IMG/VR virus record: IMGVR_UViG_3300025264_000007
Location: 16,616 to 80,615 of that record
Strand: one strand, 5' to 3'
Origin: a virus
Length of the DNA: 64,000 nt
Shown here: positions 2,410 through 44,733 of the stretch, piece after piece
Position numbering within the stretch: position 1 is the stretch's first letter
Layout: each line of letters starts with the position of its first letter
Notes under the pieces: model-generated
Databases searched by the model: none
The model's input: only the letters and a program-made list of their open reading frames with translations
What the model was told of the DNA's origin: nothing
Position numbers and translations under genes: made by a program

Positions 2410-3651
2410 CTAAGCGTCGATCGCGATCACACGCTCATTGGTTTGGAAGTAGGGGCGAGCAGCACCACGCTGGTCAGTCATCCACATGCGTTGGGCCTTG
2501 CACCGCTTGGGCTTGGGAGCTTCCATATCCGTCAGAATAATGACACCGTCAAAGCTATGCTTATTGACATAATCGGTGGGAGCATCGAAGCAAGTGCCGC
2601 CGCAGGATACCCGCTCAGTCTTCTTGTTCTGCCCCTTCTTCCAGACGTAGACCTTATCCTCTGGCACCTCAGTATCAAAGGGGATGACCGTGAACTCTGC
2701 CAGCTTTGCCAGCCCATTGAGTTCAGCGAAGAAGCTCTCTAGCATGTGATCGCTGACAGAGCCCGACTGGTCGATGGCAATGGCAATCTTTGCCTGCCGC
2801 AGCACCTTCTTGCCAGGGTGGATGTAAGCGTAACGCTTGTTGATCCGCTTCACACTGGAGCGACGACTAGCACGCTGGCTGGTCTTGATGAAGTAGCGGA
2901 GCACCTTGCGCCAGTCTACCTTAGTCTCTAGTCTTTTTATAATCTCTTGTTTTACTTCCGCCGAAACCGAGCCCCAACCTTTAGCAGCTTGGCTAGCTTC
3001 TTGGGCAGCTTCTTTGAGCGCATTCTTGAGACGTTCCTGAGCCATCTGGTTAGCCTCTGCCGGCATGTTGCCGTCATCCCAACCGGAGTGGTCGTCAAAG
3101 CTACCAGGCTCGCCGGCACCACCGCTGTCGCCTGCCTCGCTGCCTTCACTACTGTCGCTACCTTCGCCGTCTTCGGTAGACTCGCCGCCATCACCGCCGG
3201 CAGAGCCTTCACCTTCTTCTTCGCCACCATCTTTCTTAATGTTGGCAAGGTACCACTCGGCACTCTCACCCGCAGGCAGATCAGCGAAGGGCCCGACACC
3301 AGGCATGCAAGCCAGTTCGGGCAGTTCATCTTTGAGGTGGCTGTTGATAGCCAGATCAGCCGCGATGTTCCACGTCTTATGGGGAACGCCTTCAGGCTTG
3401 CGACTCGTAACATGTTCGAAGATCAAGTGGTAGAACTCATGCTTGAGAACACCCTTGACGTGCTTTTCGGAAAGACTGGCAAAGAACTCGGGGTTGTAAA
3501 CCATCTCGAACTGTGCCGTCTCAGGGTTCACACGCACACCCGCTGTTGGGATGGCAGTCGTAGAGATCTTTTCGATCCGACGGCTCAAGGCTGCGAAGAA
3601 GGGCTCTTCCATCAACAGTCTATAGGCGTGAAGGCTTAGATCAAAACTCAC
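2410..3651 (-). CDS. VWA-domain protein with HExxH metallopeptidase-like N-terminus
   Basis: 413 residues in three parts. Residues 1-140 hold a zincin-like motif 'HEFYH' (71-75) with 'NIAADLAIN' after it, as in the DUF2201/VWA family. Residues 141-197 are a Gly/Glu/Ser/Asp-rich acidic linker. The C-terminal von Willebrand A domain has the metal site 'DQSGS' (294-298), a Thr in 'GGT' and Asp in 'LTDME'. Such proteins pair with MoxR AAA+ ATPases, and a MoxR gene lies directly upstream with its own promoter and terminator. The pair probably works as a chaperone or remodelling unit; the target is unknown. It has its own promoter at 3672-3699. Confidence 0.8.
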   Translation of the reverse strand: MSFDLSLHAYRLLMEEPFFAALSRRIEKISTTAIPTAGVRVNPETAQFEMVYNPEFFASLSEKHVKGVLKHEFYHLIFEHVTSRKPEGVPHKTWNIAADLAINSHLKDELPELACMPGVGPFADLPAGESAEWYLANIKKDGGEEEGEGSAGGDGGESTEDGEGSDSSEGSEAGDSGGAGEPGSFDDHSGWDDGNMPAEANQMAQERLKNALKEAAQEASQAAKGWGSVSAEVKQEIIKRLETKVDWRKVLRYFIKTSQRASRRSSVKRINKRYAYIHPGKKVLRQAKIAIAIDQSGSVSDHMLESFFAELNGLAKLAEFTVIPFDTEVPEDKVYVWKKGQNKKTERVSCGGTCFDAPTDYVNKHSFDGVIILTDMEAPKPKRCKAQRMWMTDQRGAARPYFQTNERVIAIDA

Positions 3652-3671
3652 AGTGCCTCTCCCTCATTCAT

Positions 3672-3699
3672 ATAATAGCATGGATACACTACTTGTCAA
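3672..3699 (-). promoter_or_regulatory. Sigma70-type promoter for VWA gene
   Basis: Minus-strand TTGACA, 16 nt, TATTAT, 21 nt upstream of the VWA start codon. Almost the same gap and -10 flank (CCATGC before TATTAT) is seen at the MoxR promoter 4850-4877, so the two genes are likely co-regulated though separately promoted. Confidence 0.75.
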
Positions 3700-3716
3700 C
3701 TTTTATTTCGTTCCCT

Positions 3717-3746
3717 TAAAAACAAAACCCAGCGTTTGTGCTGGGT
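3717..3746 (-). terminator. Rho-independent terminator after MoxR gene
   Basis: A stem ACCCAGC/GCTGGGT with a 6-nt loop (727-746 of this kb), followed on the minus strand by TTTGTTTTT. It ends the MoxR transcript just before the VWA promoter. Confidence 0.75.
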
Positions 3747-3781
3747 CTTGCCGATCTCAAAGGAGTCTGGAGAGAGAGGGA

Positions 3782-4825
3782 TCAGGCTCCCAAGATCTTG
3801 GAGAGGTGGGTTCCAACCGCTCCTTTGTTTGCCCCGTGGAAGTTGACCACGTTGCTTTGAATGCCGCCCGTGGAGATCACACTCCAGAGCTTCATGGCTG
3901 CTTCGCTAGGCAGGCTGACGAAGTAGTTAGCCAGGTTGGCAACTTCCTTCTCAGAGAGTTCCTTCTTGCAGACGTCTTCAGCCTCGACCTTTTCGATCAT
4001 GGCACAGTGCTCGTTGAGCGAGAAGGCTTCCAGAGTTTCGCTGCGATCGCCAGCTAGCAGTTGGGCAACCGTCACAACCCGCTCGTAGTTCTGAGCGAAG
4101 TCGTTGAAGGCAACAGCCGCTTCGAAGCCGACGAAGCTTTGAGCCAAGGTGAACATGGCAGGGGAAGCTTCTTCCAGAAGATCAGCCTTTACCAGCACAT
4201 CGTTCAGCCGATGCCAGGAGCGACGGCTGGGATAGCGTTTGTTGGGCTCAATGTCAGCGTTATGCTCAAGGTGAGCACGGTTCTGATTGATGAAATCCCA
4301 GATGAGGCCATCAATATTTTCTTTGCCCCAAGCCAACCAATCTTCTACCGTGGGCTCAATGTCCCAGACCGACCAGCGATCGAGTTCAGCAGGATCCATC
4401 TCATTGACCTGATACTGCTCGCCATGCTCGCCGCCGTTGATGGCAGCGAACACTACGGTATCCGGGTGAAGATGATGACCGTTCAGCTTCCGGCTGTCGG
4501 TCAGTTCGAAAATCCCCTGCCGAACTTCTAGGGTAGCGCGGTCAACCTCGTCGAGGAAGAGCACAACCGGTTGCTCGCAGGATTCTTTGAACCAGTCAGG
4601 GGGATTGAAGGTGGTGCGATTGCCGTCAATGCTGGGAAGACCGACAAGGTCTCCCTCGGTCATTTGGCTGGCACGCCGTTCAACAACAGGCAGTTCCATG
4701 TTGGCGGCCAACTGGTAAACAACCTGGCTCTTGCCGACACCGTGGCGACCACGGAGCAGAACTGGCAAGCGAGCAGCACTCACTGCGGGAGCCAGCTTGA
4801 CAAAGGTTTTGAAGTCTACAGACAT
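3782..4825 (-). CDS. MoxR-type AAA+ ATPase
   Basis: 347 residues. Walker A 'GRHGVGKS' (26-33), Walker B 'VVLFLDEVDR' (87-96), sensor-1 'AAIN' (127-130) and an Arg-finger region 'DPAELDRW' (144-151) mark a MoxR-class AAA+ ATPase. These act as ATP-driven chaperones with a VWA partner, which is encoded immediately downstream. The C-terminal third is helical with no extra domain recognised. Size fits the family. MoxR/VWA pairs in bacteria mature metal enzymes or remodel complexes; here the job may be host takeover or virion assembly (inference). Confidence 0.85.
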   Translation of the reverse strand: MSVDFKTFVKLAPAVSAARLPVLLRGRHGVGKSQVVYQLAANMELPVVERRASQMTEGDLVGLPSIDGNRTTFNPPDWFKESCEQPVVLFLDEVDRATLEVRQGIFELTDSRKLNGHHLHPDTVVFAAINGGEHGEQYQVNEMDPAELDRWSVWDIEPTVEDWLAWGKENIDGLIWDFINQNRAHLEHNADIEPNKRYPSRRSWHRLNDVLVKADLLEEASPAMFTLAQSFVGFEAAVAFNDFAQNYERVVTVAQLLAGDRSETLEAFSLNEHCAMIEKVEAEDVCKKELSEKEVANLANYFVSLPSEAAMKLWSVISTGGIQSNVVNFHGANKGAVGTHLSKILGA

Positions 4826-14319: not shown

Positions 14320-14565
14320 TTAATATCCCACATAAGGTGAGATTTCTGCCGGCAATACCCACCATAATATATTGCGCAGGAACTGCACTTGGTAGTGATG
14401 GCGGTGATTCCCGTCGGGTCCGCTGACGATCACTCCCACGGTTCCTTGTGTGATGGTTTGGTTGTCTTCATCCCCATCGATAGGAACGCTCGAATAAATA
14501 TTGGCGGCTGCTTCCACGAGCGCACCCGGATAATAGCATGACGATTCAGTCGCTTTAGTCGGCAT
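14320..14565 (-). CDS. SH3/KOW-like small protein, divergent GDLV relative
   Basis: 81 residues: 'YYPGALVEAAANIY' at the position of GDLV, 'QGTVGVIVSGPDG' as central strand, 'HHYQVQFLRNILWWVLPAEI' as later strands. Same topology as the array proteins but with a 20-residue insert. Overlaps the upstream peptidase gene by 11 nt. Confidence 0.45.
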   Translation of the reverse strand: MPTKATESSCYYPGALVEAAANIYSSVPIDGDEDNQTITQGTVGVIVSGPDGNHRHHYQVQFLRNILWWVLPAEISPYVGY

Positions 14566-16592: not shown

Positions 16593-16919
16593 TTAATTCA
16601 CCTCCACTCGAATGTGGCAGAGATGGCGAAGCTCTTGCGTTTTCTGCTCGACCACATCTGATAACTGAGCCAAGTCAACCACTTGGTCTTTGCTCAAAAC
16701 AATATATTCTTTGTTGTCGTCATTAGCCAGTATCACCTTGTTGTCGGCGAGAACCTCACTCATAAACTGAAGCTGCTCAGACAAAGCAGCGATGGCGCTA
16801 GCAAGAGCCCCGATATCGCTAACTCCAAACTCGCTGAAGGGGGCATCCACAAAAGCGCACAAGTAATCAAGCGTCAGCGATGCTTGTTCGACGCCTTGAT
16901 TGTATGCGGCAAGACTCAT
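16593..16919 (-). CDS. Helical protein of unknown function
   Basis: 108 residues from 'MSLAAYNQGVEQASLTLDYL' (AAAGGTGA 8 nt upstream). An ATG at 16952 that overlaps the upstream stop as ATGA is an alternative. Long helices with heptad-like spacing ('ASAIAALSEQLQFMSEVLAD') suggest a coiled coil. It lies between a lysis-type enzyme and a small membrane protein, so a lysis role is possible. Confidence 0.45.
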   Translation of the reverse strand: MSLAAYNQGVEQASLTLDYLCAFVDAPFSEFGVSDIGALASAIAALSEQLQFMSEVLADNKVILANDDNKEYIVLSKDQVVDLAQLSDVVEQKTQELRHLCHIRVEVN

Positions 16920-29834: not shown

Positions 29835-30893
29835 TTATTTTCTCCGAGCGTTGTAGGTGTTGAGAATGTGGGCTCCACTCTCGTGAGTTCCGGCAGAAGT
29901 TTGCCTCGCCCATTCTACCTTATATCGGAGTTCTGTCAAGTTTCGTGCCCCCGAATAAGAGAGCCCACTTTTTATACCTCCTCTCAACTCTAAGAGAATA
30001 TCCCCCACATTTCCTTTGTAAGGAATATAAGAAGCCACTCCCTCGGGAGTGGATGACTTGTTGCGCCAGTCGAGTTGAGCATCTTTGGAAGCCATTCCCC
30101 GATATTCTTTTACGGGATAGCCGTCGGGATGGTAAGCCACTGCCCCAGGAGTTTCGGTGGTTCCCGCAAGCAGGGATCCACACATCACGAAGTCAGCGCC
30201 AGCGGCTAAGGCTTTGACGATATCTCCGGAGCTTTTGATTCCTCCGTCTGCGATGATCGCGACGTCTCGGTCAGTTCTCGCGCAATCAAAGATGGTCTGG
30301 AGACCTGGGACGCCATGCCCAGTAACCACACGAGTAGAACAGATGGAACCCCCACCAATATTACAACGTATAGAATCAGCACCCCAGTCGGCAAGATCAT
30401 TGACCCCCTCTAAGGTACATACGTTGCCCGCCATAATATGGATATGATTATCGTATTCTTCCCTCAAATTCTTGAGGGCTTCCTTCATCAAGATGTGATG
30501 ACCGTGGGCAACATCTACGCAGAGGGTGTCTACCCCAGCCGCCACCAGGGCTGCGGCTCGTCTCATGTAATCGTCGGTCACGCCGATGGCTGCTGCGACG
30601 TTGCCAGACCAGTCGGTCTGCTGAATAGCGTGTTGAGCCATCTTCGCCTGTTCTTCTACCGTATGGTACCTGTGAAGAATTGCCATACCTCCAGCGTTGT
30701 TCATGGCAATAGCCATAGCATCTTCGGATACGGTGTCCATCGGCGATGCGATGATGGGGAGTTCTAAAACTTTTCCTCTCCCCAGGTCGCTTGATATATC
30801 TACCTCGCTTCTGCTCTTGATATCGCTGTATTGCGGTACCATCAGCATATCGTCGTAGGTGACTGCTTCTTTAAATTTCATTGGATTGCCCAT
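29835..30893 (-). CDS. IMP dehydrogenase / GMP reductase family enzyme (no CBS domain)
   Basis: 352 residues of a TIM-barrel: 'DDMLMVPQYSDIKSR' start, 'NNAGGMAILHRYHTVEEQAK', catalytic Cys185 in 'GGSICSTRVVTGHGVP', 'IIADGGIKSSGD', flap 'YRGMASKDA' and 'GGIKSGLSYSGARNLTEL'. The two CBS domains of bacterial IMPDH are missing, so it is a CBS-less IMPDH or a GMP reductase; sequence alone does not decide. Either would shift purine pools toward or from GTP for DNA synthesis. AAGGAA upstream supports the first ATG. Confidence 0.88.
   Translation of the reverse strand: MGNPMKFKEAVTYDDMLMVPQYSDIKSRSEVDISSDLGRGKVLELPIIASPMDTVSEDAMAIAMNNAGGMAILHRYHTVEEQAKMAQHAIQQTDWSGNVAAAIGVTDDYMRRAAALVAAGVDTLCVDVAHGHHILMKEALKNLREEYDNHIHIMAGNVCTLEGVNDLADWGADSIRCNIGGGSICSTRVVTGHGVPGLQTIFDCARTDRDVAIIADGGIKSSGDIVKALAAGADFVMCGSLLAGTTETPGAVAYHPDGYPVKEYRGMASKDAQLDWRNKSSTPEGVASYIPYKGNVGDILLELRGGIKSGLSYSGARNLTELRYKVEWARQTSAGTHESGAHILNTYNARRK
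29912..29939 (-). promoter_or_regulatory. Promoter-like site inside IMPDH-like gene
   Basis: Minus-strand AACTTGACA, 16 nt, TAGAAT, in the last 35 codons of the IMPDH-like gene and 78 nt upstream of the sigma-like gene. The same layout occurs inside recA at 50949-50976. Confidence 0.5.
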
Positions 30894-33603: not shown

Positions 33604-33783
33604 TTACTCTAATAGTTCAAGAGTGTTGAGGATCTTCATTTCTGATTCCGCGGTAGTCTCTGTTTCTTCCCAGTGGATAGTCCACCATTTGTCGTGGCGG
33701 CGAGTAAATGGTCCTAACAGCATTCCTACGAAACCGGTCGAAGGATCCTGCACCAAGGTACCTGATCTTAATTGTGTGCTCAT
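33604..33783 (-). CDS. GDLV-family SH3/KOW-like small protein (short)
   Basis: 59 residues from 'MSTQLRSGTLVQDPSTGFVG', start picked at 33783 for its GGAGG site. 'GFVGMLLGPF', 'KWWTIHWEE' and 'LNTLELLE' give a compact barrel, about the shortest family member here. Lies left of the main array, past a HAD gene. Confidence 0.55.
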   Translation of the reverse strand: MSTQLRSGTLVQDPSTGFVGMLLGPFTRRHDKWWTIHWEETETTAESEMKILNTLELLE

Positions 33784-33826
33784 CGAGCCTCCTAACTTCC
33801 CACTACTATGGGTGCTTGTTGTCTGG

Positions 33827-34297
33827 TCATTTTTTACACATTTGGTTGTTGCACAACCCTGATAAAAAATTGAATTGTTTCTTCTGGAGGTTGCAGGTAA
33901 AGAAGGGATCTTTTTCTGCAAACTCATCCAAATATTTGTTGGCAATAATTGTTTGGAATACCGTGATGCCGTGATCTTTGATCTTGTTGACATAATAAGG
34001 GTTGTCATCGTAAAAGATTTCTATGTTATGTTCTTTTAGGATTTTTAATTTATGTTCCGCCATTTTCTGGAAGTGATCCAAATCCATATTTTTTTTCTCA
34101 TACTCAAATCCGCACAAGATATCTTCGTAGGTATCTGGACCAAATCCTAAATCGGCTAAACCTTTTTCTACTTCGTGTCGTTGAGAAGGGGGAGTTCCCG
34201 TTACAATATAAACCTTCCCCTGCCAACCGTTAATGAGTCTTTTAAAAAACTCAGGTGCATACGAAAGGGTATCGTGGAAATCAATGCCGATATTCAT
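33827..34297 (-). CDS. HAD-like phosphatase
   Basis: 156 residues. 'MNIGIDFHDTLSY' fits HAD motif I (DxxDT with Asp6 and Asp9), and 'EIFYDDNPYYVNKIKDHG' fits motif IV. 'VYIVTGTPPSQRHEVEKGL' is motif II region (Thr). Small, capless type; could be a deoxynucleotidase or nucleotide phosphatase. It sits inside the GDLV array. Confidence 0.65.
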   Translation of the reverse strand: MNIGIDFHDTLSYAPEFFKRLINGWQGKVYIVTGTPPSQRHEVEKGLADLGFGPDTYEDILCGFEYEKKNMDLDHFQKMAEHKLKILKEHNIEIFYDDNPYYVNKIKDHGITVFQTIIANKYLDEFAEKDPFFTCNLQKKQFNFLSGLCNNQMCKK

Positions 34298-34539
34298 TAG
34301 CTCAAAATATCCATAGTATTATATATGTTTGTGTAAGTTTCCTGGGAAATATTATCTATCGCAAAGGGGCGTGGTTCGCCGATCCACTGAAGCTGGAACC
34401 AGAGGACGCCGTCGGAACGATCCCAGTCAGGGGGGGATTTGATAATAAGGGCTGTTTGCTTTGTCTTGCGACACTGCACGAGTCTCCCCACTTCAAGCGT
34501 ACGGGGGACAACCTCAAACATTCCGTAGTGCCTACTCAT
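34297..34539 (-). CDS. GDLV-family SH3/KOW-like small protein
   Basis: 80 residues: 'LEVGRLVQCRKTKQTALIIK', 'LWFQLQWIGEPR', ending 'NTMDILS'. Its start overlaps the upstream stop by 8 nt; its stop shares one base with the HAD start. Confidence 0.55.
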   Translation of the reverse strand: MSRHYGMFEVVPRTLEVGRLVQCRKTKQTALIIKSPPDWDRSDGVLWFQLQWIGEPRPFAIDNISQETYTNIYNTMDILS

Positions 34540-34780
34540 CTTCTTTCCTAACGATGTTGAAACAATTATTAACGTTTACTAAAAGTGTTTGTTCTTTCTC
34601 TCCGGAGGTGAGCCACTGAAGATCTACATAGCGGTTGGCCCAGCTTGTGCCGGTACCTTTCTTCTCCTCGTAAGACTTGGTGAGGACAAGAGCGAGGCGG
34701 TCAGAACGTCGGCAACGCAGAAGAGTGCCGGGCATCTGAACTTTGTTCGCATGGTAGAGACTGTAGTCACTCTGATTCAC
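34532..34780 (-). CDS. GDLV-family SH3/KOW-like small protein
   Basis: 82 residues with 'QMPGTLLRCRRSDRLALVLT' and 'YVDLQWLTSGEKEQTLLV'. Close to the previous array gene (RCRRSDRLALVL against QCRKTKQTALII), so a recent duplicate. GTG start, 14-nt overlap with the gene upstream. Confidence 0.6.
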   Translation of the reverse strand: MNQSDYSLYHANKVQMPGTLLRCRRSDRLALVLTKSYEEKKGTGTSWANRYVDLQWLTSGEKEQTLLVNVNNCFNIVRKEDE

Positions 34781-34982
34781 TCAGCACCTCCCAATTCATA
34801 GGCATATAAATACATCGGCGACCGTTCGGAAATAGCACATCCCATAAAATATTTTTACCGGTCACTACTTGCTTGTTAGCAAGGATAGCATATTCTCCAC
34901 ACTCTTTAACGGTGGAGTTCTCACGGCACTGTTTCTTGATACGGAGAAGGGTGCCTGGTTTGAGTCTGTCAGGGTAATTCAC
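34767..34982 (-). CDS. GDLV-family SH3/KOW-like small protein
   Basis: 71 residues: 'LKPGTLLRIKKQ', 'EYAILANKQVV', 'ILWDVLFPNGRRCIY', 'NWEVLSESE'. GTG start with 14-nt overlap upstream. Confidence 0.6.
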   Translation of the reverse strand: MNYPDRLKPGTLLRIKKQCRENSTVKECGEYAILANKQVVTGKNILWDVLFPNGRRCIYMPMNWEVLSESE

Positions 34983-35187
34983 TGGCTACCTTCTCCAACA
35001 GATCCGGGCGGTATCGCTTGGGATGGTTGCCGTTGTTAAAAAGAACGCTGACATAATGATATTGTCCGTCAGGAGTATGAGTGACAAAGTTGGAGCGCGT
35101 GATAAGACCCATCTGTCCGCCGGGGACAGCAATGCGAACCAAATCACCCACCTTGAACTGGGGTTTTGTGTCGAAGTCTGGATTCAT
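34969..35187 (-). CDS. GDLV-family SH3/KOW-like small protein
   Basis: 72 residues: 'FKVGDLVRIAVPGGQMGLIT', 'YVSVLFNNGNHP', 'DLLEKVAS'. Closest to its upstream neighbour (GLITRSNF against GVVTRSNY). ATGA overlap upstream. Confidence 0.6.
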   Translation of the reverse strand: MNPDFDTKPQFKVGDLVRIAVPGGQMGLITRSNFVTHTPDGQYHYVSVLFNNGNHPKRYRPDLLEKVASELP

Positions 35188-35387
35188 TTTACTTTCGCCA
35201 GATATTCTATGGGGTATTGGGTTGACTGGTGCGCTCCAAAGAGAACGTCAACAAACTGAGTCTCGCCTCCGAGATATTCATCAAGAGCCCAATAGTTTGA
35301 GCGAGTGACGACGCCGAGAGCCTTTGTGGCGTTGGCACTGACCAATTCGCCAATCTTATAGCTCACATATTCGGGATTCATTACCAC
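35184..35387 (-). CDS. GDLV-family SH3/KOW-like small protein
   Basis: 67 residues: 'YKIGELVSANATKALGVVTR', 'FVDVLFGAHQSTQ', 'EYLAKVK'. Motif is GELV. Overlaps the upstream gene by 7 nt. Confidence 0.6.
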   Translation of the reverse strand: MVMNPEYVSYKIGELVSANATKALGVVTRSNYWALDEYLGGETQFVDVLFGAHQSTQYPIEYLAKVK

Positions 35388-35587
35388 ATCCTTTTCGTCA
35401 GTTTTTCTTCTTGAATAAAGAAGGTTGAGCTATCGGGCTTGAGTACACACCACATGGGATAGACCGGACCATTAATCTTTTCAACCAGAACCAAGGGCGT
35501 CTTGTTGTCAGCCAGGTCAATGAACCACAAGGTTGACAAGTGGTCAATCGCCGTCTTTCTAATTCTTACTAGGTCGCCGCACTTCAT
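35381..35587 (-). CDS. GDLV-family SH3/KOW-like small protein
   Basis: 68 residues: 'MKCGDLVRIRKTA', 'KTPLVLVEKINGP', 'MWCVLKPDSSTFFI'. ATGA overlap with the gene upstream. The first loop carries an extra aromatic strand. Confidence 0.6.
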   Translation of the reverse strand: MKCGDLVRIRKTAIDHLSTLWFIDLADNKTPLVLVEKINGPVYPMWCVLKPDSSTFFIQEEKLTKRMW

Positions 35588-35781
35588 GATACTACCTCAA
35601 AATGGCTGGCGTTTCGCCAATGCTCTGCGTGAAACCGTGGTTCGTGCGTGGTATCCATGAGAGTTACTCTGATGATTAGGTCTGCGGGGTCGGGTCCTAT
35701 CTCCGTTACCAGTCCCAAAGCACCCCCAGGCTGATTGGTAACTCGATTGGGCTTGCGTCTTACGAGGTTGCCGACTTTCAT
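35584..35781 (-). CDS. GDLV-family SH3/KOW-like small protein
   Basis: 65 residues: 'MKVGNLVRRKPNR', 'GALGLVTEIGPDP', 'IIRVTLMDTTH', 'HFEVVS'. The variant motif is GNLV; strongly basic start. Confidence 0.6.
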   Translation of the reverse strand: MKVGNLVRRKPNRVTNQPGGALGLVTEIGPDPADLIIRVTLMDTTHEPRFHAEHWRNASHFEVVS

Positions 35782-36038
35782 GAGAGCACCTCCGCTTGAT
35801 CAGGGAAAACCATAACGGCACCCATGTCTAGGAAATTCATATTCTGCAAAGACTCGAACCGCACAAGAGACGGGTAAACCTTTACTCGCTCCGGTAGCTT
35901 GTCTTGATCTAGCTTGTGAGAGAGGTCATACTTTTCTTGGATAACCAAGCCAATCTCCCCCTCTAGTTTAGCACGGATGACGGGAGCGAACTGAGCCAGA
36001 CCAGATTTGTTTATTTTGATAATCTGTCCGACTTTCAT
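35778..36038 (-). CDS. GDLV-family SH3/KOW-like small protein (longer)
   Basis: 86 residues: 'MKVGQIIKINKSGLAQFA', 'GEIGLVIQEKYD', 'YPSLVRFESLQ', 'QAEVLS'. Longer loops than its neighbours and the motif drifts to GQII. Confidence 0.55.
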   Translation of the reverse strand: MKVGQIIKINKSGLAQFAPVIRAKLEGEIGLVIQEKYDLSHKLDQDKLPERVKVYPSLVRFESLQNMNFLDMGAVMVFPDQAEVLS

Positions 36039-36268
36039 GAAATCTGCTCCATGTTGCAGACATAATCTACGAAAGATTGCCCGCCATCAATCGGCTCGCA
36101 TTGATAGAAGAGGTGTTCATCGGCATCTTCATAGTCTCGGTCAAACTTACATGACGGCGACAAGCCGATAACCAAAGCAATCACATTGACCTCGGTTGCT
36201 GCGTTGCTGTTGACCAGCATACCCGGCTGGATGCGACAGCGTTTTTGAATCTCTTTTGCTACGCTCAT
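36035..36268 (-). CDS. GDLV-family SH3/KOW-like small protein
   Basis: 77 residues: 'RIQPGMLVNSNAATEVNVIA', 'LVIGLSPSC', 'LFYQCEPIDGG'. The motif is GMLV, after a 14-residue N-terminal helix. First gene downstream of the small acidic gene 36278-36433. Confidence 0.55.
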   Translation of the reverse strand: MSVAKEIQKRCRIQPGMLVNSNAATEVNVIALVIGLSPSCKFDRDYEDADEHLFYQCEPIDGGQSFVDYVCNMEQIS

Positions 36269-36277
36269 CTGTGCCTC

Positions 36278-36433
36278 TTAATACATGAAGGTGTTTTCAA
36301 CGAGGTGTTCAACAACCACGTCGTGAATTTCCATAGCATTTTGGGGATGCTCGTTGATGGCGTCGTACCAAGCGTCAAGTGCTCCTTGACCAACGGCTCC
36401 TAGAATCTTTTCAATGTGTTCTTGAACTGGCAT
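36278..36433 (-). CDS. Small acidic helical protein (51 aa)
   Basis: 'MPVQEHIEKILGAVGQGALD' then 'AWYDAINEHPQNAMEIHDVV'. Not a barrel: a two-helix acidic peptide. GGAGAGAG upstream, and a promoter at 36453-36480 directly before it, make this the head gene of the left half of the array. Function unknown. Confidence 0.55.
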   Translation of the reverse strand: MPVQEHIEKILGAVGQGALDAWYDAINEHPQNAMEIHDVVVEHLVENTFMY

Positions 36434-36452
36434 GTCTCTCTCCTTGTATCTT

Positions 36453-36480
36453 ATATTAGCACGGATAAGGTGCCTGTCAA
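36453..36480 (-). promoter_or_regulatory. Sigma70-type promoter within GDLV array
   Basis: Minus-strand AACTTGACA, 16 nt ending CCGTGC, TAATAT; overlaps the last codon of the upstream array gene. Confidence 0.75.
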
Positions 36481-36701
36481 GTTTTATTCTTGGGTCCCTT
36501 AGAAATAAGTTCTAGGTGGTCGCACCTTACCCAATAGTCTCCGTCGGGTGTTCGCACTTTGAACTTATTGTCGGCAGTGAAAACATAACGCTGCTTAATA
36601 ACAATACCTGTCAACATCGTCTCATCAATATATTCTTCTGTTACTCGCCTAGCCTCAAAGTTTACAAGGTCGCCGAGTTGGTATCTAAACGGATTGCTCA
36701 T
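36477..36701 (-). CDS. GDLV-family SH3/KOW-like small protein
   Basis: 74 residues: 'YQLGDLVNFEARRV', 'TGIVIKQRYVF', 'FKVRTPDGDYWVRCDHLELI'. Closest relative in the window is the gene at 785-1009. 17-nt overlap upstream. Confidence 0.6.
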   Translation of the reverse strand: MSNPFRYQLGDLVNFEARRVTEEYIDETMLTGIVIKQRYVFTADNKFKVRTPDGDYWVRCDHLELISKGPKNKT

Positions 36702-36897
36702 CGTTCACTAATTTCAAATGCTGGACGGAATAATATTCTTCCAGTTCATATCCGAGCCAGTTAACCTTTACACAGACCGTAGTGCGGTCGTCTGGTGTTT
36801 CTGGATAGGAAAGCACCAGCCCAAGTTGGCGATTGTTGCCTTTGGCTACTGATTCCCGAAAACTCCAATCGGGCTCTACTAAGTCACCGGGTTTCAC
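36685..36897 (-). CDS. GDLV-family SH3/KOW-like small protein
   Basis: 70 residues, GTG start: 'MKPGDLVEPDWSF', 'RQLGLVLSYPET', 'VCVKVNWLGYELEEYYSVQH', 'LKLVND'. A clean example of the family strand order. 14-nt overlap upstream. Confidence 0.65.
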   Translation of the reverse strand: MKPGDLVEPDWSFRESVAKGNNRQLGLVLSYPETPDDRTTVCVKVNWLGYELEEYYSVQHLKLVNDEQSV

Positions 36898-37051
36898 TTA
36901 TCACCTCTAGGCTTCCTTCTCTAAAGACTTGACCGCCGCTGAACCCTTCTAAACGAACAAACCCCTCAGCCACTGAAAGAACCAAATATGTTCGGTCGCC
37001 AAGGCTGGCTCCATATCGTCCCTTGATCGAGACCAAATCACCCGGCTTCAT
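36884..37051 (-). CDS. GDLV-family SH3/KOW-like small protein (55 aa)
   Basis: 55 residues: 'MKPGDLVSIKGRYGASLGDR', 'TYLVLSVAEGFVRLEGF', 'GSLEVISETR'. It fills what looks like a gap between array genes and overlaps both neighbours by 14 nt. The shortest array member, close to a minimal barrel. Confidence 0.65.
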   Translation of the reverse strand: MKPGDLVSIKGRYGASLGDRTYLVLSVAEGFVRLEGFSGGQVFREGSLEVISETR

Positions 37052-37229
37052 TTATGACCTCCAAATACTTATTCCGAAACCAGTGAGTTTGTTTGCCCAG
37101 TGATGTTTTTTCGGTCAGAAGTAGTTGAGTGTAGTCTTCTTCTTCTGAAGATTCAAGAGCAATAATGATCCCGTAGAATATTTGGTAAGAGTAGCCCTCA
37201 GCCGTCTTAACCAAGTCACCGAGTTTCAC
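37038..37229 (-). CDS. GDLV-family SH3/KOW-like small protein
   Basis: 63 residues: 'MKLGDLVKTAEGY', 'FYGIIIALES', 'YTQLLLTEK', 'KYLEVINEAG'. 14-nt overlaps on both sides. Confidence 0.65.
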   Translation of the reverse strand: MKLGDLVKTAEGYSYQIFYGIIIALESSEEEDYTQLLLTEKTSLGKQTHWFRNKYLEVINEAG

Positions 37230-37407
37230 GCCACAACTCCAATTCGCCGTAGTGCCAAGTTCTTTCTTTGCCTTCCAGCAAAGTCAAAACTGTTTCGCTT
37301 CGGTGGGAACCACCTTCAATAACTTTGATGACCAGCATCTTTTTGCCGGCCACTTCTCGGTCGGAAAAAATGTTTGGGGCTTGTCTTACCAAATCACCCG
37401 GCTTCAT
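37216..37407 (-). CDS. GDLV-family SH3/KOW-like small protein
   Basis: 63 residues: 'MKPGDLVRQAPNIF', 'KKMLVIKVIEGG', 'TVLTLLEGKERTWHYGELEL'. 14-nt overlaps on both sides. Confidence 0.65.
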   Translation of the reverse strand: MKPGDLVRQAPNIFSDREVAGKKMLVIKVIEGGSHRSETVLTLLEGKERTWHYGELELWRETR

Positions 37408-37588
37408 TTAGCACCTTCAATTCACACAAGCGTTGCTTACAGGGGGAGTTGTCGGACATAAAGTTCCAGAGAACGTCGCACCACATATAGCCCGCTGGGT
37501 TTTTGGGTGGGAGATAAACTTTTACAACAATACCTGAGACTGACTTGTCCATTTCGTGCTCAAACGTTACGAGATCACCGACTTTCAT
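37394..37588 (-). CDS. GDLV-family SH3/KOW-like small protein
   Basis: 64 residues: 'MKVGDLVTFEHEMDKSVSGI', 'VVKVYLPP', 'MWCDVLWNFM', 'CELKVLNEAG'. 14-nt overlaps on both sides. Confidence 0.65.
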   Translation of the reverse strand: MKVGDLVTFEHEMDKSVSGIVVKVYLPPKNPAGYMWCDVLWNFMSDNSPCKQRLCELKVLNEAG

Positions 37589-37763
37589 TGACTAGCTCCA
37601 AATAATCGTGGTCTTTGGGATAGGGTCCATTGCCTTCTCCGTCAGTCCACGCAATATCAACTTTTTCTTCTGCGCCTTCACAAGCCTTCCACACACCGAC
37701 AACCACGCCATAGACTGGTTCTTTCGTGGGGTGTGACCATTTTACTAAATCACCGCGTTTCAC
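37575..37763 (-). CDS. GDLV-family SH3/KOW-like small protein
   Basis: 62 residues, GTG start: 'MKRGDLVKWSHPTKEPVYGV', 'VVGVWKA', 'KVDIAWTDGEGN', 'DYLELVNESR'. 14-nt overlaps on both sides. Confidence 0.65.
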   Translation of the reverse strand: MKRGDLVKWSHPTKEPVYGVVVGVWKACEGAEEKVDIAWTDGEGNGPYPKDHDYLELVNESR

Positions 37764-37956
37764 TGATTACCTTTTCTATACGATAGGAGCTACAATTGCC
37801 GGGAGATCCGTCCTCGCAGTAAACCATACGAATGTGGGGCGGGATGCCCTCGCCGTGAAGCTCAACTTTAGAAATGAGGGCGAGGTGACCCGACTTCATC
37901 TCAACAAGGTCGCCAACTTTTAGTTCGTATCGCCAACCGGCGTCGTCTCTAATCAT
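37750..37956 (-). CDS. GDLV-family SH3/KOW-like small protein
   Basis: 68 residues: a 10-residue lead, then 'ELKVGDLVEMKSGHLALISK', 'IRMVYCEDG', 'YRIEKVISETR'. Overlaps the upstream divergent gene by 8 nt. Confidence 0.6.
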   Translation of the reverse strand: MIRDDAGWRYELKVGDLVEMKSGHLALISKVELHGEGIPPHIRMVYCEDGSPGNCSSYRIEKVISETR

Positions 37957-38227
37957 TTGTTTCTACAATCTCAAAGTTAGGGTCGCTGTGAAGGCTCACC
38001 CAGCGGGCATCCCTTACCTGACCCAAAGCCTCAAGCAGGAGGAAGGGGCCAGGAGCAGGCGTCTTAAACGATACCTTGTCAGTCTCCCCGCTCACCTTCC
38101 ACATGTCACCCTTTTCGTGAATGCGGTTTTTGCCGTGACGGGTGATGCCAGAGAGCTTAACTGTCTTGCCTACGTTAGGTCCAGGCGGTAGCTGTGTCCA
38201 GTGCTTTTTCACGACTCTCTCCCTCAC
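37949..38227 (-). CDS. Small beta protein, possible divergent GDLV member
   Basis: 92 residues; 'NVGKTVKLSGITRHG', 'MWKVSGETDKVSFK', 'FLLLEALGQVRD', 'WVSLHSDPNFEIVE'. Strand-rich, ends like the family, but lacks the GDLV box. First gene after the promoter at 38232-38259, so it heads the array transcript. Confidence 0.45.
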   Translation of the reverse strand: MRERVVKKHWTQLPPGPNVGKTVKLSGITRHGKNRIHEKGDMWKVSGETDKVSFKTPAPGPFLLLEALGQVRDARWVSLHSDPNFEIVETND

Positions 38228-38231
38228 TAGT

Positions 38232-38259
38232 ATACTACCACCCTATTGGGATAAGTCAA
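38232..38259 (-). promoter_or_regulatory. Sigma70-type promoter
   Basis: Minus-strand AACTTGACT, 16 nt, TAGTAT, 5 nt from the start codon at 38227; a TATACT shifted by three bases is an alternative -10. The short distance means an almost leaderless message. Confidence 0.55.
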
Positions 38260-38269
38260 GTTATTTATT

Positions 38270-38512
38270 TTATTGTGCCAGCAATATTTCAGCGTAATTT
38301 ACACATAGACAGACAGTCTTGATTCCCTCGGGACGACACAGAAGTGGTCCTCGTCCAGATTTAGTGAAGGGGTTTCCAGAATAGGCAACCACGCTATAAA
38401 AGTATCCTTCGGGCCAAATAGGTTCAGGCCCACTACACACATACCCCAGCGTGGGCTTACCCTTCAGACGAATTTCAACCACTTCACCAATCTCAAATTC
38501 GTTTTCAACCAT
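38270..38512 (-). CDS. GDLV-family SH3/KOW-like small protein (longer)
   Basis: 80 residues: 'FEIGEVVEIRLKGKPTLGYV', 'YFYSVVAYSGN', 'VCLCVNYAEILLA'. The motif is GEVV and the late loop is extended. Own promoter at 38537-38564. Confidence 0.55.
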   Translation of the reverse strand: MVENEFEIGEVVEIRLKGKPTLGYVCSGPEPIWPEGYFYSVVAYSGNPFTKSGRGPLLCRPEGIKTVCLCVNYAEILLAQ

Positions 38513-38536
38513 AATGAAAACCTCCCTTACAGCAGT

Positions 38537-38564
38537 ATATTAGCACACTTCTAGGAGAGGTCAA
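38537..38564 (-). promoter_or_regulatory. Sigma70-type promoter
   Basis: Minus-strand AACTTGACC, 16 nt, TAATAT preceded by TGC (extended -10). Confidence 0.7.
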
Positions 38565-38565
38565 G

Positions 38566-38823
38566 TTATATTTCGATTCTGAGAAAAGTCAAAAATCTGG
38601 AAAGTAGGGAGCGATTATTTTTCGGAGCCATCTCGTTTTTGGTAATTTCATCCGCACAGGTAAAAAAGCGTTGCTCTCGGTATTGCTGGAGCAGGCGCTC
38701 GTCGCTTAATACCCACTTGCGGAGTCTGAACCATTCCACCAAGTCACTGGGAGTATAAACGGGCTGGTTCTCTAAGATAGCCAGACGGTATAATGCAGTA
38801 GCCACGGAGTTCTCCTCTACCAT
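38566..38823 (-). CDS. Small protein of unknown function
   Basis: 85 residues, mostly helical ('ENSVATALYRLAILENQPVY', 'LSDERLLQQYREQRFF') with a basic C-terminus. Own promoter at 38824-38851. Not recognised. Confidence 0.45.
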   Translation of the reverse strand: MVEENSVATALYRLAILENQPVYTPSDLVEWFRLRKWVLSDERLLQQYREQRFFTCADEITKNEMAPKNNRSLLSRFLTFLRIEI

Positions 38824-38851
38824 AGTATACCATTCCTTCGGCAGAGGTCAA
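38824..38851 (-). promoter_or_regulatory. Sigma70-type promoter
   Basis: Minus-strand GTTGACC, 16 nt, TATACT; the -10 abuts the start codon at 38823, so either the start is later or the message is leaderless. Confidence 0.6.
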
Positions 38852-38859
38852 CAAAAAAA

Positions 38860-39504
38860 CTAATCGTTTAGTTCAGATATGAAAGCCTCTCGCCAATTTG
38901 TGTAGGACCCATTTGGATACCTTTCTTTACAAACTCTACTGTATTCATACGTCATATCCCAGCCGTCTAAGATGGCCATGTGTGGGAGAGAGATAGAACC
39001 GTTACTTGGGCACACATCAATTAGTTGCGCCCCCATTGTAATGCTGAAATTGGGATCAATGACCATCTTGGCGGGATCGGCTTCCACCAGTTCCGCATAG
39101 GCCAAACATTCTTCTGGAGATATGTCTGGGCTGCCTGTCGCATCTTGAGCTACTGCTATCAGGTAATCCCACTGTGCGTTGTCGCCGCCAGAGATGGCGT
39201 GGTCGAAGGTGATGCCTCGGAGGTAAGCCTTGCAGGCAGGGCACCAGACTGTGCTGATGGCGAAGACCTGTAATTTATTTTTGCCGCAGCCGTCGTGCAG
39301 TTGAACTTCCTCACCAAGGCAATTAATAAATGTAGCGTTGCGTAGTTGGTCGCCGATTCCGTTGCCGGTTCCCCGCTCTTCGCATCCGTGGTCAGGCTCG
39401 GAGGGTCCAGCGTCTGCCGGTCCTGCATCTAGCGTGCCCTCAAGCGGGGCTTCTCCGCACGCAAGTATCCCTAGAAGAACCCCTACATAAAACTTCCCTT
39501 TCAT
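38860..39504 (-). CDS. Thioredoxin-like lipoprotein (TlpA/redoxin type)
   Basis: 214 residues. Lipoprotein signal 'MKGKFYVGVLLGILACGE' with lipobox Cys16, then a low-complexity linker 'LDAGPADAGPSEPDHGC'. A thioredoxin-like domain follows with 'VFAISTVWCPACKAYLRG' (active-site CPAC) and cis-Pro region 'ISLPHMAILDG'. It would act in the periplasm in disulfide exchange or reduction. The DAG-rich linker after the lipobox is a style I associate with Myxococcota/Bradymonadota-type lipoproteins, suggesting a gene taken from such a host. Cys-rich (at least 8 Cys). Confidence 0.75.
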   Translation of the reverse strand: MKGKFYVGVLLGILACGEAPLEGTLDAGPADAGPSEPDHGCEERGTGNGIGDQLRNATFINCLGEEVQLHDGCGKNKLQVFAISTVWCPACKAYLRGITFDHAISGGDNAQWDYLIAVAQDATGSPDISPEECLAYAELVEADPAKMVIDPNFSITMGAQLIDVCPSNGSISLPHMAILDGWDMTYEYSRVCKERYPNGSYTNWREAFISELND

Positions 39505-39543: not shown

Positions 39544-40101
39544 TTATTTATCGCCCGTTGAACCGAGAGCGCCGTCACCCCGGCTTGTTTCCTCGTCGTA
39601 AATATTTTCTGCCTCCACCAACTCAAGGTCGGTGGTGATTTTGACGAAGACCGCTTGGGCAATTTTATCACCCGCATGAAGCGTCTGGGTACGGTCGCTT
39701 GGGTTGTGAAGGTTCACAAAGATTTCTCCTGTGTATCCTCGGTCAACCACGCAGGCTCCCACGAGGAGGCCACGCTTGGAGGCGATCCCAGACTTGTTCT
39801 TGATCTCCATCATATATCCTTCGGGCACCTCAATCTTAAGACCTGTTGGCAGAGTAGATGCCCCGTGAGGAAGGATGCTCTCAATCTGTTTAGGTATCAT
39901 ATCATTCGGAGGGGGGCAGAAAAATAAATCCATGCCGGCATCTGTGGGGTGTGCCCGTTGAGGCATTTTAGATTGGGCATGGAGTAATTGAACTCGGAGG
40001 GGCATCATATCACTTTCATAGTCTGGGCAAGCTGGCTTGAGGTTACAACCGCAATTATAACATAATAGATCGTCTTTAATTAAGTTTTTTCCATCAATCA
40101 T
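39544..40101 (-). CDS. dut: dUTPase with N-terminal Cys extension
   Basis: 185 residues. dUTPase motifs in order: 'AHPTDAGMDLF', 'KSGIASKRGLLVG', 'VVDRGYTGEI', 'LHAGDKIAQAV' and the C-terminal 'SRGDGALGSTG'. It hydrolyses dUTP to dUMP, keeping uracil out of DNA and feeding dTMP synthesis. The first 32 residues ('LLCYNCGCNLKPAC') add four Cys, probably a metal knuckle; an internal ATG at residue 32/33 would give the bare enzyme. ATGA overlap upstream. Confidence 0.92.
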   Translation of the reverse strand: MIDGKNLIKDDLLCYNCGCNLKPACPDYESDMMPLRVQLLHAQSKMPQRAHPTDAGMDLFFCPPPNDMIPKQIESILPHGASTLPTGLKIEVPEGYMMEIKNKSGIASKRGLLVGACVVDRGYTGEIFVNLHNPSDRTQTLHAGDKIAQAVFVKITTDLELVEAENIYDEETSRGDGALGSTGDK

Positions 40102-44376: not shown

Positions 44377-44733
44377 TCACGCTTCGGCGGTGCTTTCTTC
44401 ATCAAGGGGGCTCCCGTATACATCCTTGTGCCCGTCCTGGTAAGTAATGATGGTTCGATTAGCTGGGTGTGGTTCAATGTGAACCTTCACAAAATCGCTC
44501 ATACTATCAAAGATGGCAATACCTCCACGGGGCGGTGGGTACAGCCAATGAACAACACACTGTCCAGTCGCCATGACGACGCCTTCAATAACGACGCCGT
44601 CGCCGGAGACTCCGGTCTCATCATGCTGGCGGAATACTGTAAAACTGGTAATCCCTCGTGGTGCCAGCTTTGAAGGTGGCTTGGGGATTAAGTCGTCAGC
44701 AACCTCTTCAGCCGTTTTCTGTTCTTCGCTCAT
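44377..44733 (-). CDS. Small beta-rich phage protein
   Basis: 118 residues from 'MSEEQKTAEEVADDLIPKPP' (GGAG upstream). 'FTVFRQHDETGVSGDGVVIE', 'GVVMATGQCVVHWLYPP' and 'GIAIFDSMSDFVKVHI' recall a common small phage protein with an SH3-like core, of unknown role. Confidence 0.5.
   Translation of the reverse strand: MSEEQKTAEEVADDLIPKPPSKLAPRGITSFTVFRQHDETGVSGDGVVIEGVVMATGQCVVHWLYPPPRGGIAIFDSMSDFVKVHIEPHPANRTIITYQDGHKDVYGSPLDEESTAEA

Follow-up and report, generated by a model that had tools for sequence, protein, structure and literature searches.

How does a phage come to carry a long row of tiny, strongly differing genes, and by which means is such a row kept in working order? This question is raised by a locus within a 64,000-nucleotide (nt) stretch of viral DNA, in the following called the window, which corresponds to positions 16,616 to 80,615 of the 80,615-base IMG/VR virus record IMGVR_UViG_3300025264_000007, belongs to a fragment of a large tailed phage and is coding on one strand over nearly its whole length. 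Nineteen open reading frames (ORFs) of 55-92 residues (aa) follow each other head to tail between positions 34297 and 38512, and an ORF check located all of them at the coordinates reported by the initial annotation. These genes, their joints and the genes flanking the array are encoded on the minus strand. The evidence leans toward an array of cassettes located in an accessory island and carried by a clade of large, uncultured, T4-like marine phages; each cassette would hold one gene for a small barrel protein and would be exchanged at the joints. The parts of this reading differ in strength, with the anatomy of the array, i.e., the genes and the joint, being held with high confidence.

The connection between the genes is the central feature. 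Adjacent array genes often overlap by exactly 14 nt, and eight such joints are present in the window, at 37750-37763 (between the genes 37750-37956 and 37575-37763), 37575-37588, 37394-37407, 37216-37229, 37038-37051, 36884-36897, 34969-34982, and 34767-34780, with the consensus ttGGAGgtgnTcARTGAAgccnGGTGATTTgGT. At the joint 37038-37051, the reference copy of a 33-nt direct repeat (37032-37064), one frame reads L E V I N E A G followed by the stop codon, while the other begins with M K P G D L V. The LEV codons for the last strand of the upstream protein at the same time form the Shine-Dalgarno box GGAGG, the downstream start codon follows inside the upstream gene, and the upstream stop codon TGA spans the G and D codons of the downstream gene. 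A C-terminus of the form [EA]x[RG] occurs in 96% of the genes with a 14-nt overlap vs. 27% of the genes without a member downstream, and the terminal glutamate codon is GAG in 210 of 216 cases (210:6) compared to 307 of 637 (307:330) in the gene bodies. The C-terminal motif and the codon bias thus reveal a constraint at the DNA level. Accordingly, the common LE(V/L) end and the GD of the start, previously regarded as signature of a fold, partly represent a joint of Shine-Dalgarno box, start, and stop and not the protein fold alone. This may serve as a general warning: where the ends of small genes are conserved, a joint at the DNA level can be the cause instead of a motif of the protein.

The frequency of the joint was best judged from islands gathered by their flanking genes, which were unselected for the joint and thus provide the fair survey. 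Here, an overlap of exactly 14 nt is present at 64 of 160 distinct junctions between members, followed by overlaps of 4 nt (31) and 1 nt (23). Of the 932 members of a wider set, 526 have their start 14 nt within the preceding ORF, a frequency biased upward as this set was largely collected with the joint pattern itself. According to a review, the enriched spacings of prokaryotic genes are -4, -1, and -8 (PMC12548453).

Such a joint could primarily serve translation, i.e., the strict coupling of a very long operon whose products are made in equal amounts, e.g., as subunits of one complex, with gene exchange as a by-product. The strong Shine-Dalgarno box in each joint, the glutamate codon bias and the few gaps inside the array would agree with this. 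Nevertheless, translational coupling reportedly weakens with an overlap growing from 4 to 25 nt (PMC12548453), so that 14 nt are not the best choice for coupling, and the number and identity of the members differ by virus, which would be odd for a fixed stoichiometry. Translation as the main purpose of the joint is hence considered improbable.

Besides, promoter-like sites were found at a few gaps (38851, 38564, 38259, and 36480) and not at each joint, with counts over the whole scan near the shuffled expectation. The pattern consists of TTGAC.., 16 nt and TG before TA..AT, with two of these sites covering 38824-38851 and 36453-36480. A 36-nt direct repeat (38229-38264 and 38534-38569) coincides with such extended -10 promoter-like sites in the gaps at the head of the array. 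The site ahead of position 36433 suggests two operons.

For the question of exchange, 16 array-bearing islands extending from the dUTPase-like gene (39544-40101, the conserved left flank) to the IMP dehydrogenase (IMPDH)-like gene (29835-30893, the conserved right flank) were compared. Their orthologue groups occur in largely conserved order, and the zone between the anchor genes c2 (37750-37956) and c3 (36685-36897) is filled with different cassettes in each virus. The islands of relatives feature between 0 and about 20 array genes, including near-empty sites among close relatives, with only 49 bp between the flanks in L144 and 367-586 bp in L132, L142, and L152. In one virus, c0 directly follows c2 through the same joint. 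Moreover, 186 gene pairs of at least 60% identity keep the 14-nt overlap in front of upstream genes that are unrelated between both viruses. For members at least 80% identical with unrelated upstream neighbors, the identity amounts to 27% upstream, rises at the Shine-Dalgarno box and reaches 83-90% over the first 30 nt, and it drops to about 30% within 12 nt past the stop codon where the downstream neighbor differs. The genes shared by L320 and L354 occur in random order (14 of 28 inversions). Due to the joint kept beside unrelated neighbors, the scrambled order and the similarity ending at the gene ends, the whole gene is very likely the unit of exchange. That the recombination takes place at the joint itself is the simplest reading and also likely, albeit to a lesser degree.

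The same comparisons bear on a more ordinary origin, namely an ancient tandem family in which one SH3-like gene was duplicated in place, the overlap was copied with it, and divergence and loss followed, with no special exchange at joints. All units share the joint, many orthologues are collinear between the islands and a few true tandem duplicates exist (c10-c10, c3-c3, and c6-c6), which would be expected under such a history. It does not readily account for the occurrence of one gene behind many unrelated upstream neighbors without loss of the overlap, as in the 186 pairs, for the random order between L320 and L354 or for the near-empty sites among close relatives. In addition, close relatives of a member are far more common in other viruses than in the same locus. 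A paralogue of 60% identity is found in the same locus for merely 0.8% of the members, vs. 36% with one in another virus. An ancient tandem family is accordingly an unlikely explanation, and recent in-place duplication was rejected on the basis of the 0.8%. The few local and many foreign paralogues rather indicate that the sets were assembled from a shared pool and not expanded in place, so that the arrays look like non-redundant sets drawn from this pool.

The extent of the pool became apparent from the distribution of the joint pattern, which is present at no fewer than 120 loci in viral contigs. Among the matches listed (120 loci), every locus includes family members, with five or more of them in 95 loci and 32 in one, while 225 of 229 joint matches feature a real upstream ORF ending at the respective stop codon. 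The 739 members among these loci form 590 clusters at 60% identity. Conservation is restricted to the strand core (GDLV, G-[IL]-V, V-x-W..G, and LEVI) and the joint-encoded ends, with the loop columns being low in information. The dN/dS ratio (nonsynonymous to synonymous substitution rates), proposed as a check by the initial annotation, was mostly 0.1-0.4 in the orthologue groups, indicating purifying selection and thus genes that are real and kept. The idea of a repertoire fits these data, whereas the expansion and drift assumed for its origin do not hold as stated, given the purifying selection and the scarcity of local paralogues. Only seven occurrences of this pattern were obtained from 84,980 genomes of bacteria and archaea, every one of them in a metagenome-assembled genome and mostly on short contigs. 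Two loci (L411 and L413) lie on a metagenome-assembled chromosome of candidate division WOR-3 (CP070664.1), with array members beside clade-like phage genes and host-like genes. This occurrence may reflect an integrated virus, a host clue or a mis-assembly.

The viruses carrying the arrays are apparently related. A homologue of the DnaE-type polymerase of the window is encoded by 41 of 50 array-bearing viral contigs, mostly with 56-76% identity, and the array is thus largely a feature of one clade. Further phage replication and chaperone genes of the window encode a DnaB-like helicase, a UvsX-like recombinase, ribonucleotide reductase, GroEL, and FtsH. RecA, dUTPase, and IMPDH served as handles for the collection of relatives among viral contigs, while FtsH retrieved nothing there. 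The FtsH homologue of one relative (G025:C1:34447-36264) contains one in-frame TAA, located at or near the end or representing a true break. Relatives with 85-95% identical RecA are common in the viral contigs, the longest of them with 172-191 kb. One of these encodes a contractile tail sheath, as read from its sequence. Judged by its terminase, the nearest cultured phages are Flavobacterium phage immuto and Microcystis phage Mel-JY01 (about 44% identity), which both possess T4-like capsid proteins. A profile search of these two phages, the closest cultured ones tested, yielded no family members. The clade appears to be uncultured.

A dense row of small ORFs could also be a mere mixture of unrelated genes sharing a start motif by chance, and the membership of the array was therefore examined by profile searches. 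When 6,919 ORFs from this phage and its relatives were searched with a profile built from ten members, 57 matched at E<1e-3, whereas the same ORFs after shuffling gave no match below 0.1, which shows that the family is not a product of chance. Likewise, the iterated profile matched 119 ORFs at E<0.003, again with none below 0.1 in the shuffled set. In profile-profile comparisons with the wide family (hhalign), 15 of the 19 genes reached probabilities of 81-98%, compared to 0.5% or less for unrelated small genes of the window. Two genes are borderline, i.e., c5 (36035-36268, 77 aa, 31-68%) and the 80-aa gene at 34297-34539 (19-48%; HMMER E 0.0085). A family relation is unsupported by sequence for c15 (37949-38212, 87 aa, 1-3%) and for the 80-aa gene at the head of the array (38270-38512, under 1%). 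A gene of 51 aa within the array, overlooked so far (c18, 36278-36433), stands outside the family (0.1%); its group constitutes a conserved non-barrel gene that occupies varied array positions in relatives. The additional 59-aa ORF at 33604-33783 (c9, minus strand), located beyond a nucleotidase-like gene, does exist but lies inside an ORF of 134 aa and is at most a possible distant member (11-51%). The failure of the genes at 37949, 38270, 33604, and 36278 is what a mixture would predict, yet in view of the 15 clear genes, the controls and the shuffled ORFs, this explanation is largely refuted and hardly credible any more. The single family postulated for all 19 genes thus stands for most of them, and the window array, judged from sequence, seems to comprise about 17 related tiny genes.

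The signature of the family turned out to be looser than described, as only about half of the genes start with an exact GDLV and the others with GTLL, GNLV, GQII, GMLV, GRLV, or GELV. With regard to stray copies elsewhere in the window, those at 785, 1006, and 1428 were confirmed (93-96%), the one at 14320 is likely (86%), those at 44708 and 12671 are possible (76 and 59%), and the one at 40098 is unsupported (12%). The proposed total of about 29 for the window is thus lowered to about 19 firm members, or about 24 at most. The three confirmed copies (785-1009, 1006-1233, and 1428-1661), together with an unprofiled ORF between them, form a second small cluster on the minus strand (785-1661). 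This cluster adjoins a gene pair for a MoxR-like ATPase and a VWA/metallopeptidase protein (window positions 2410-4825), homologues of which rank among the commonest array neighbors in other viruses. Outside the window, a 164-aa protein (G000:C1:4051-4545) combines a C-terminal barrel of the array type with an unrelated N-terminal part, and similar proteins are held by relatives (E 1e-3 to 4e-5).

The 15 clear members, with gene starts picked by rule, are arranged as follows. The upstream end of the variable zone is marked by the anchor c2 (37750-37956, 68 aa; profile E 1.2e-7; 97% in hhalign), with orthologues in most of the array-bearing islands compared (15 members, the orthologue counts including a few near-identical viruses). 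Within the zone follow a canonical member of 62 aa (37575-37763; E 7.9e-13; 98%), for which no orthologue was found among the compared islands, c25 (37394-37588, 64 aa, 97.5%), c21 (37216-37407, 63 aa, 94%), c26 (37038-37229, 63 aa, 97.5%), and c10 (36884-37051, 55 aa, 98%), which changes its position between islands and is duplicated in relatives. The downstream end of the zone is set by the anchor c3 (36685-36897, 70 aa, 97%). Beyond it, c11 (36477-36701, 74 aa, 95%) precedes c18 and the borderline c5, the latter with 14 orthologues and a dN/dS of 0.20. The row continues with c14 (35778-36038, 86 aa, 69-88%), c27 (35584-35781, 65 aa, 93%), c0 (35381-35587, 68 aa, 92-95%; HMMER E 0.0037), which is present in every array-bearing island compared, c8 (35184-35381, 65 aa, 85-89%), a 72-aa gene (34969-35187, 96%), c1 (34767-34982, 71 aa, 96%), and c4 (34532-34780, 82 aa, 82-85%). 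For c14 and c0, the match spans little beyond the N-terminus (23 and 10 columns, respectively). Between the array and the left flank, a lipoprotein-like ORF of 214 aa (38860-39504) displays a CPAC motif, thioredoxin-like by eye, and is without a Pfam or PHROG match.

Concerning the nature of the encoded proteins, the predicted structures agree with the SH3/KOW-like fold assumed before. The AlphaFold2 model of c3, computed with 31 relatives, reached a predicted local distance difference test score (pLDDT) of 80 and a predicted template modeling score of 0.66 and features a barrel of five short strands in SH3 strand order with a 3-10 turn ahead of the last strand. Foldseek comparisons of this model with the PDB returned Spt5 KOW, chromo-barrel, PWWP, and SH3 domains with probabilities near 1 and weak E-values (0.05 and above), while the best match among viral models had an E-value of 2e-3, with numerous small phage proteins lacking a name and DUF4314 proteins ranking behind it. 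The profile-negative c15 was likewise predicted as a small barrel of five strands, with lower confidence than c3 (pLDDT 73), and its matches (PetP, nitrile hydratase beta, YorP, ribosomal, and Tudor domains) are mostly SH3-like and weak (best E 0.1). Array members are therefore predicted, with support from these models, to be free-standing small SH3/KOW-like barrels of about 62 aa each.

Curated families do not cover them. Pfam, PHROGs, and NCBIfam gave chance-level matches only and no DUF4926, KOW, or SH3 family, so that the relationship to these families considered by the initial annotation was not recovered. In Pfam, KOW, DUF4926, and DUF4314 remained without a match at E<=1 for ten members and at E<=0.1 for ten more. 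PDB sequences, likewise searched by profile, produced chance-level matches as well. Against known phages, a DNA search of the array found nothing and tblastn with a single protein found nothing convincing; the pool is thus absent from the collection of known phages or too divergent for it. Compared to SH3-like small barrels in general (KOW of Spt5/NusG, chromo-barrel, PWWP, Tudor, SH3, and the phage DUF4314), the array members resemble them in predicted strand order and size but match no curated family by sequence and are free-standing, in tandem and very diverse.

What such barrels might do can be approached from their surfaces and surroundings. Small binders with an own target each would fit an island that is dispensable and variable and that encodes numerous single-domain barrels in which the core is conserved and the loops are free. 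The array is accordingly interpreted as a shuffled accessory set of presumably small binding proteins, and a role as binders in host takeover is put forward tentatively. Genes of the restriction-modification type occur inside or beside the arrays of three lineages (L146:10295-11948; L141:11559-12993 and L232:2086-3520; L136:13245-15893) and suggest a setting of host conflict. In L146, a type II methyltransferase (E 9e-51) follows a weak match to a restriction enzyme (E 3e-4) through a 14-nt overlap, while in L141 and L232 a methyltransferase (E 8e-47 for L141) is accompanied by a partner of no recognized type. An EcoRI-like restriction enzyme suspected in L141 received no support from a PDB sequence search. 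PADLOC gave no match for the three members tested.

RNA polymerase and ribosomes are common targets of KOW and Tudor domains. The barrels might accordingly be modulators of nucleic acids, RNA polymerase, or ribosomes rather than a repertoire built target by target, the more so as the best solved Foldseek match is an Spt4/5 KOW protein and NusG and ribosomal KOW proteins are also listed. However, these PDB matches are weak (E 0.05 or worse), no surface residue is conserved beyond the strand core and the joint-encoded ends, and the net charge of the members is centered on zero with a spread from -12 to +12. With isoelectric points spreading from 5 to 9, the members are not uniformly basic nucleic acid binders, and a uniform role in nucleic acid binding was marked down due to the charges. 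Such modulators are, on the whole, considered unlikely, although they are somewhat less improbable than a joint made for translation.

Several points weigh against the reading as an exchanged set of binders. The binding role of the loops would follow from analogy with SH3-like folds. Average positive selection, which an arms race might produce, was not seen. Four to five of the 20 array genes of the window are not clearly family, and most genes outside the zone between c2 and c3 have orthologues in conserved order, i.e., much of the array is stable. Moreover, breakpoints at gene ends are to be expected in a mosaic for any gene gain, and a crossover at the joint goes one step beyond them; the common overlap could also be inherited from ancient tandem duplication. 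The upward bias of the wide survey belongs here as well.

With these points considered, the favored cassette array would operate as follows. Each cassette would consist of one gene for a free-standing small SH3/KOW-like barrel and would start and end with the same sequence of about 30 nt. Due to these common ends, recombination from joint to joint could add, remove, and reorder whole genes with start, stop, and ribosome site intact, presumably by means of the phage's own recombination machinery. Less certainly, each barrel may bind its own target via the variable loops, and the array may form a repertoire of host-takeover or counter-defense binders tuned by cassette exchange. If so, the virus would make gene exchange harmless, as the coding overlap would act as a connector allowing any cassette to fit after any other, and a protein repertoire would be built and updated with no integrase. 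The clusters described above point to a large, as yet unsampled reservoir of free-looped small barrels, which would then be candidate inhibitors of host and defense proteins and natural small binding scaffolds. As a whole, a phage-borne, integrase-free cassette system, in which the standard joint of stop, Shine-Dalgarno box, and start makes binder genes interchangeable and the clade draws host-directed sets from a very large shared SH3-like pool, is conceivable, but a proposal with the odds still somewhat against it.

Such arrays were found nowhere described in the openly licensed literature searched. Still, three known systems invite comparison. The 'ORFanage' of cyanophage S-PM2 is a block of small orphan genes with rarely conserved synteny (PMC4503421). 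It likewise represents a dispensable small-gene block in a large marine T4-like phage, but its ORFs are described as orphans, whereas the array genes belong to a single family and share a standard joint. Integron gene cassette arrays, e.g., of Vibrio, are long arrays of small one-gene cassettes of no assigned function which are acquired, lost, and rearranged (PMC1382264). The phage cassettes differ from them by overlapping in coding sequence, by sharing one fold and by their location in phage genomes. An attC-like site or an integrase was not noticed at the array, with no dedicated search made, and as the genes overlap at their joints, an attC site would find no space between them. Finally, promoter/stem-loop elements (PeSLs) are associated with modular shuffling in T4-type phages (Arbiol et al. 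2010, Comeau et al. 2014, as cited in PMC4503421). They share with the array the short repeated elements at the borders of accessory genes, with shuffled genes on either side, and mediate gene shuffling in variable regions of T4-like myoviruses. An early promoter plus stem-loop terminator between genes, as in PeSLs, does not recur from joint to joint in the array, where adjacent genes overlap. Its repeat is embedded in the coding sequence of two genes at once, comprises Shine-Dalgarno box, start, and stop, and links genes of a single protein family. PeSL shuffling and integron cassettes can be regarded as the nearest precedents, neither of which, as described, uses coding overlap as the connector.

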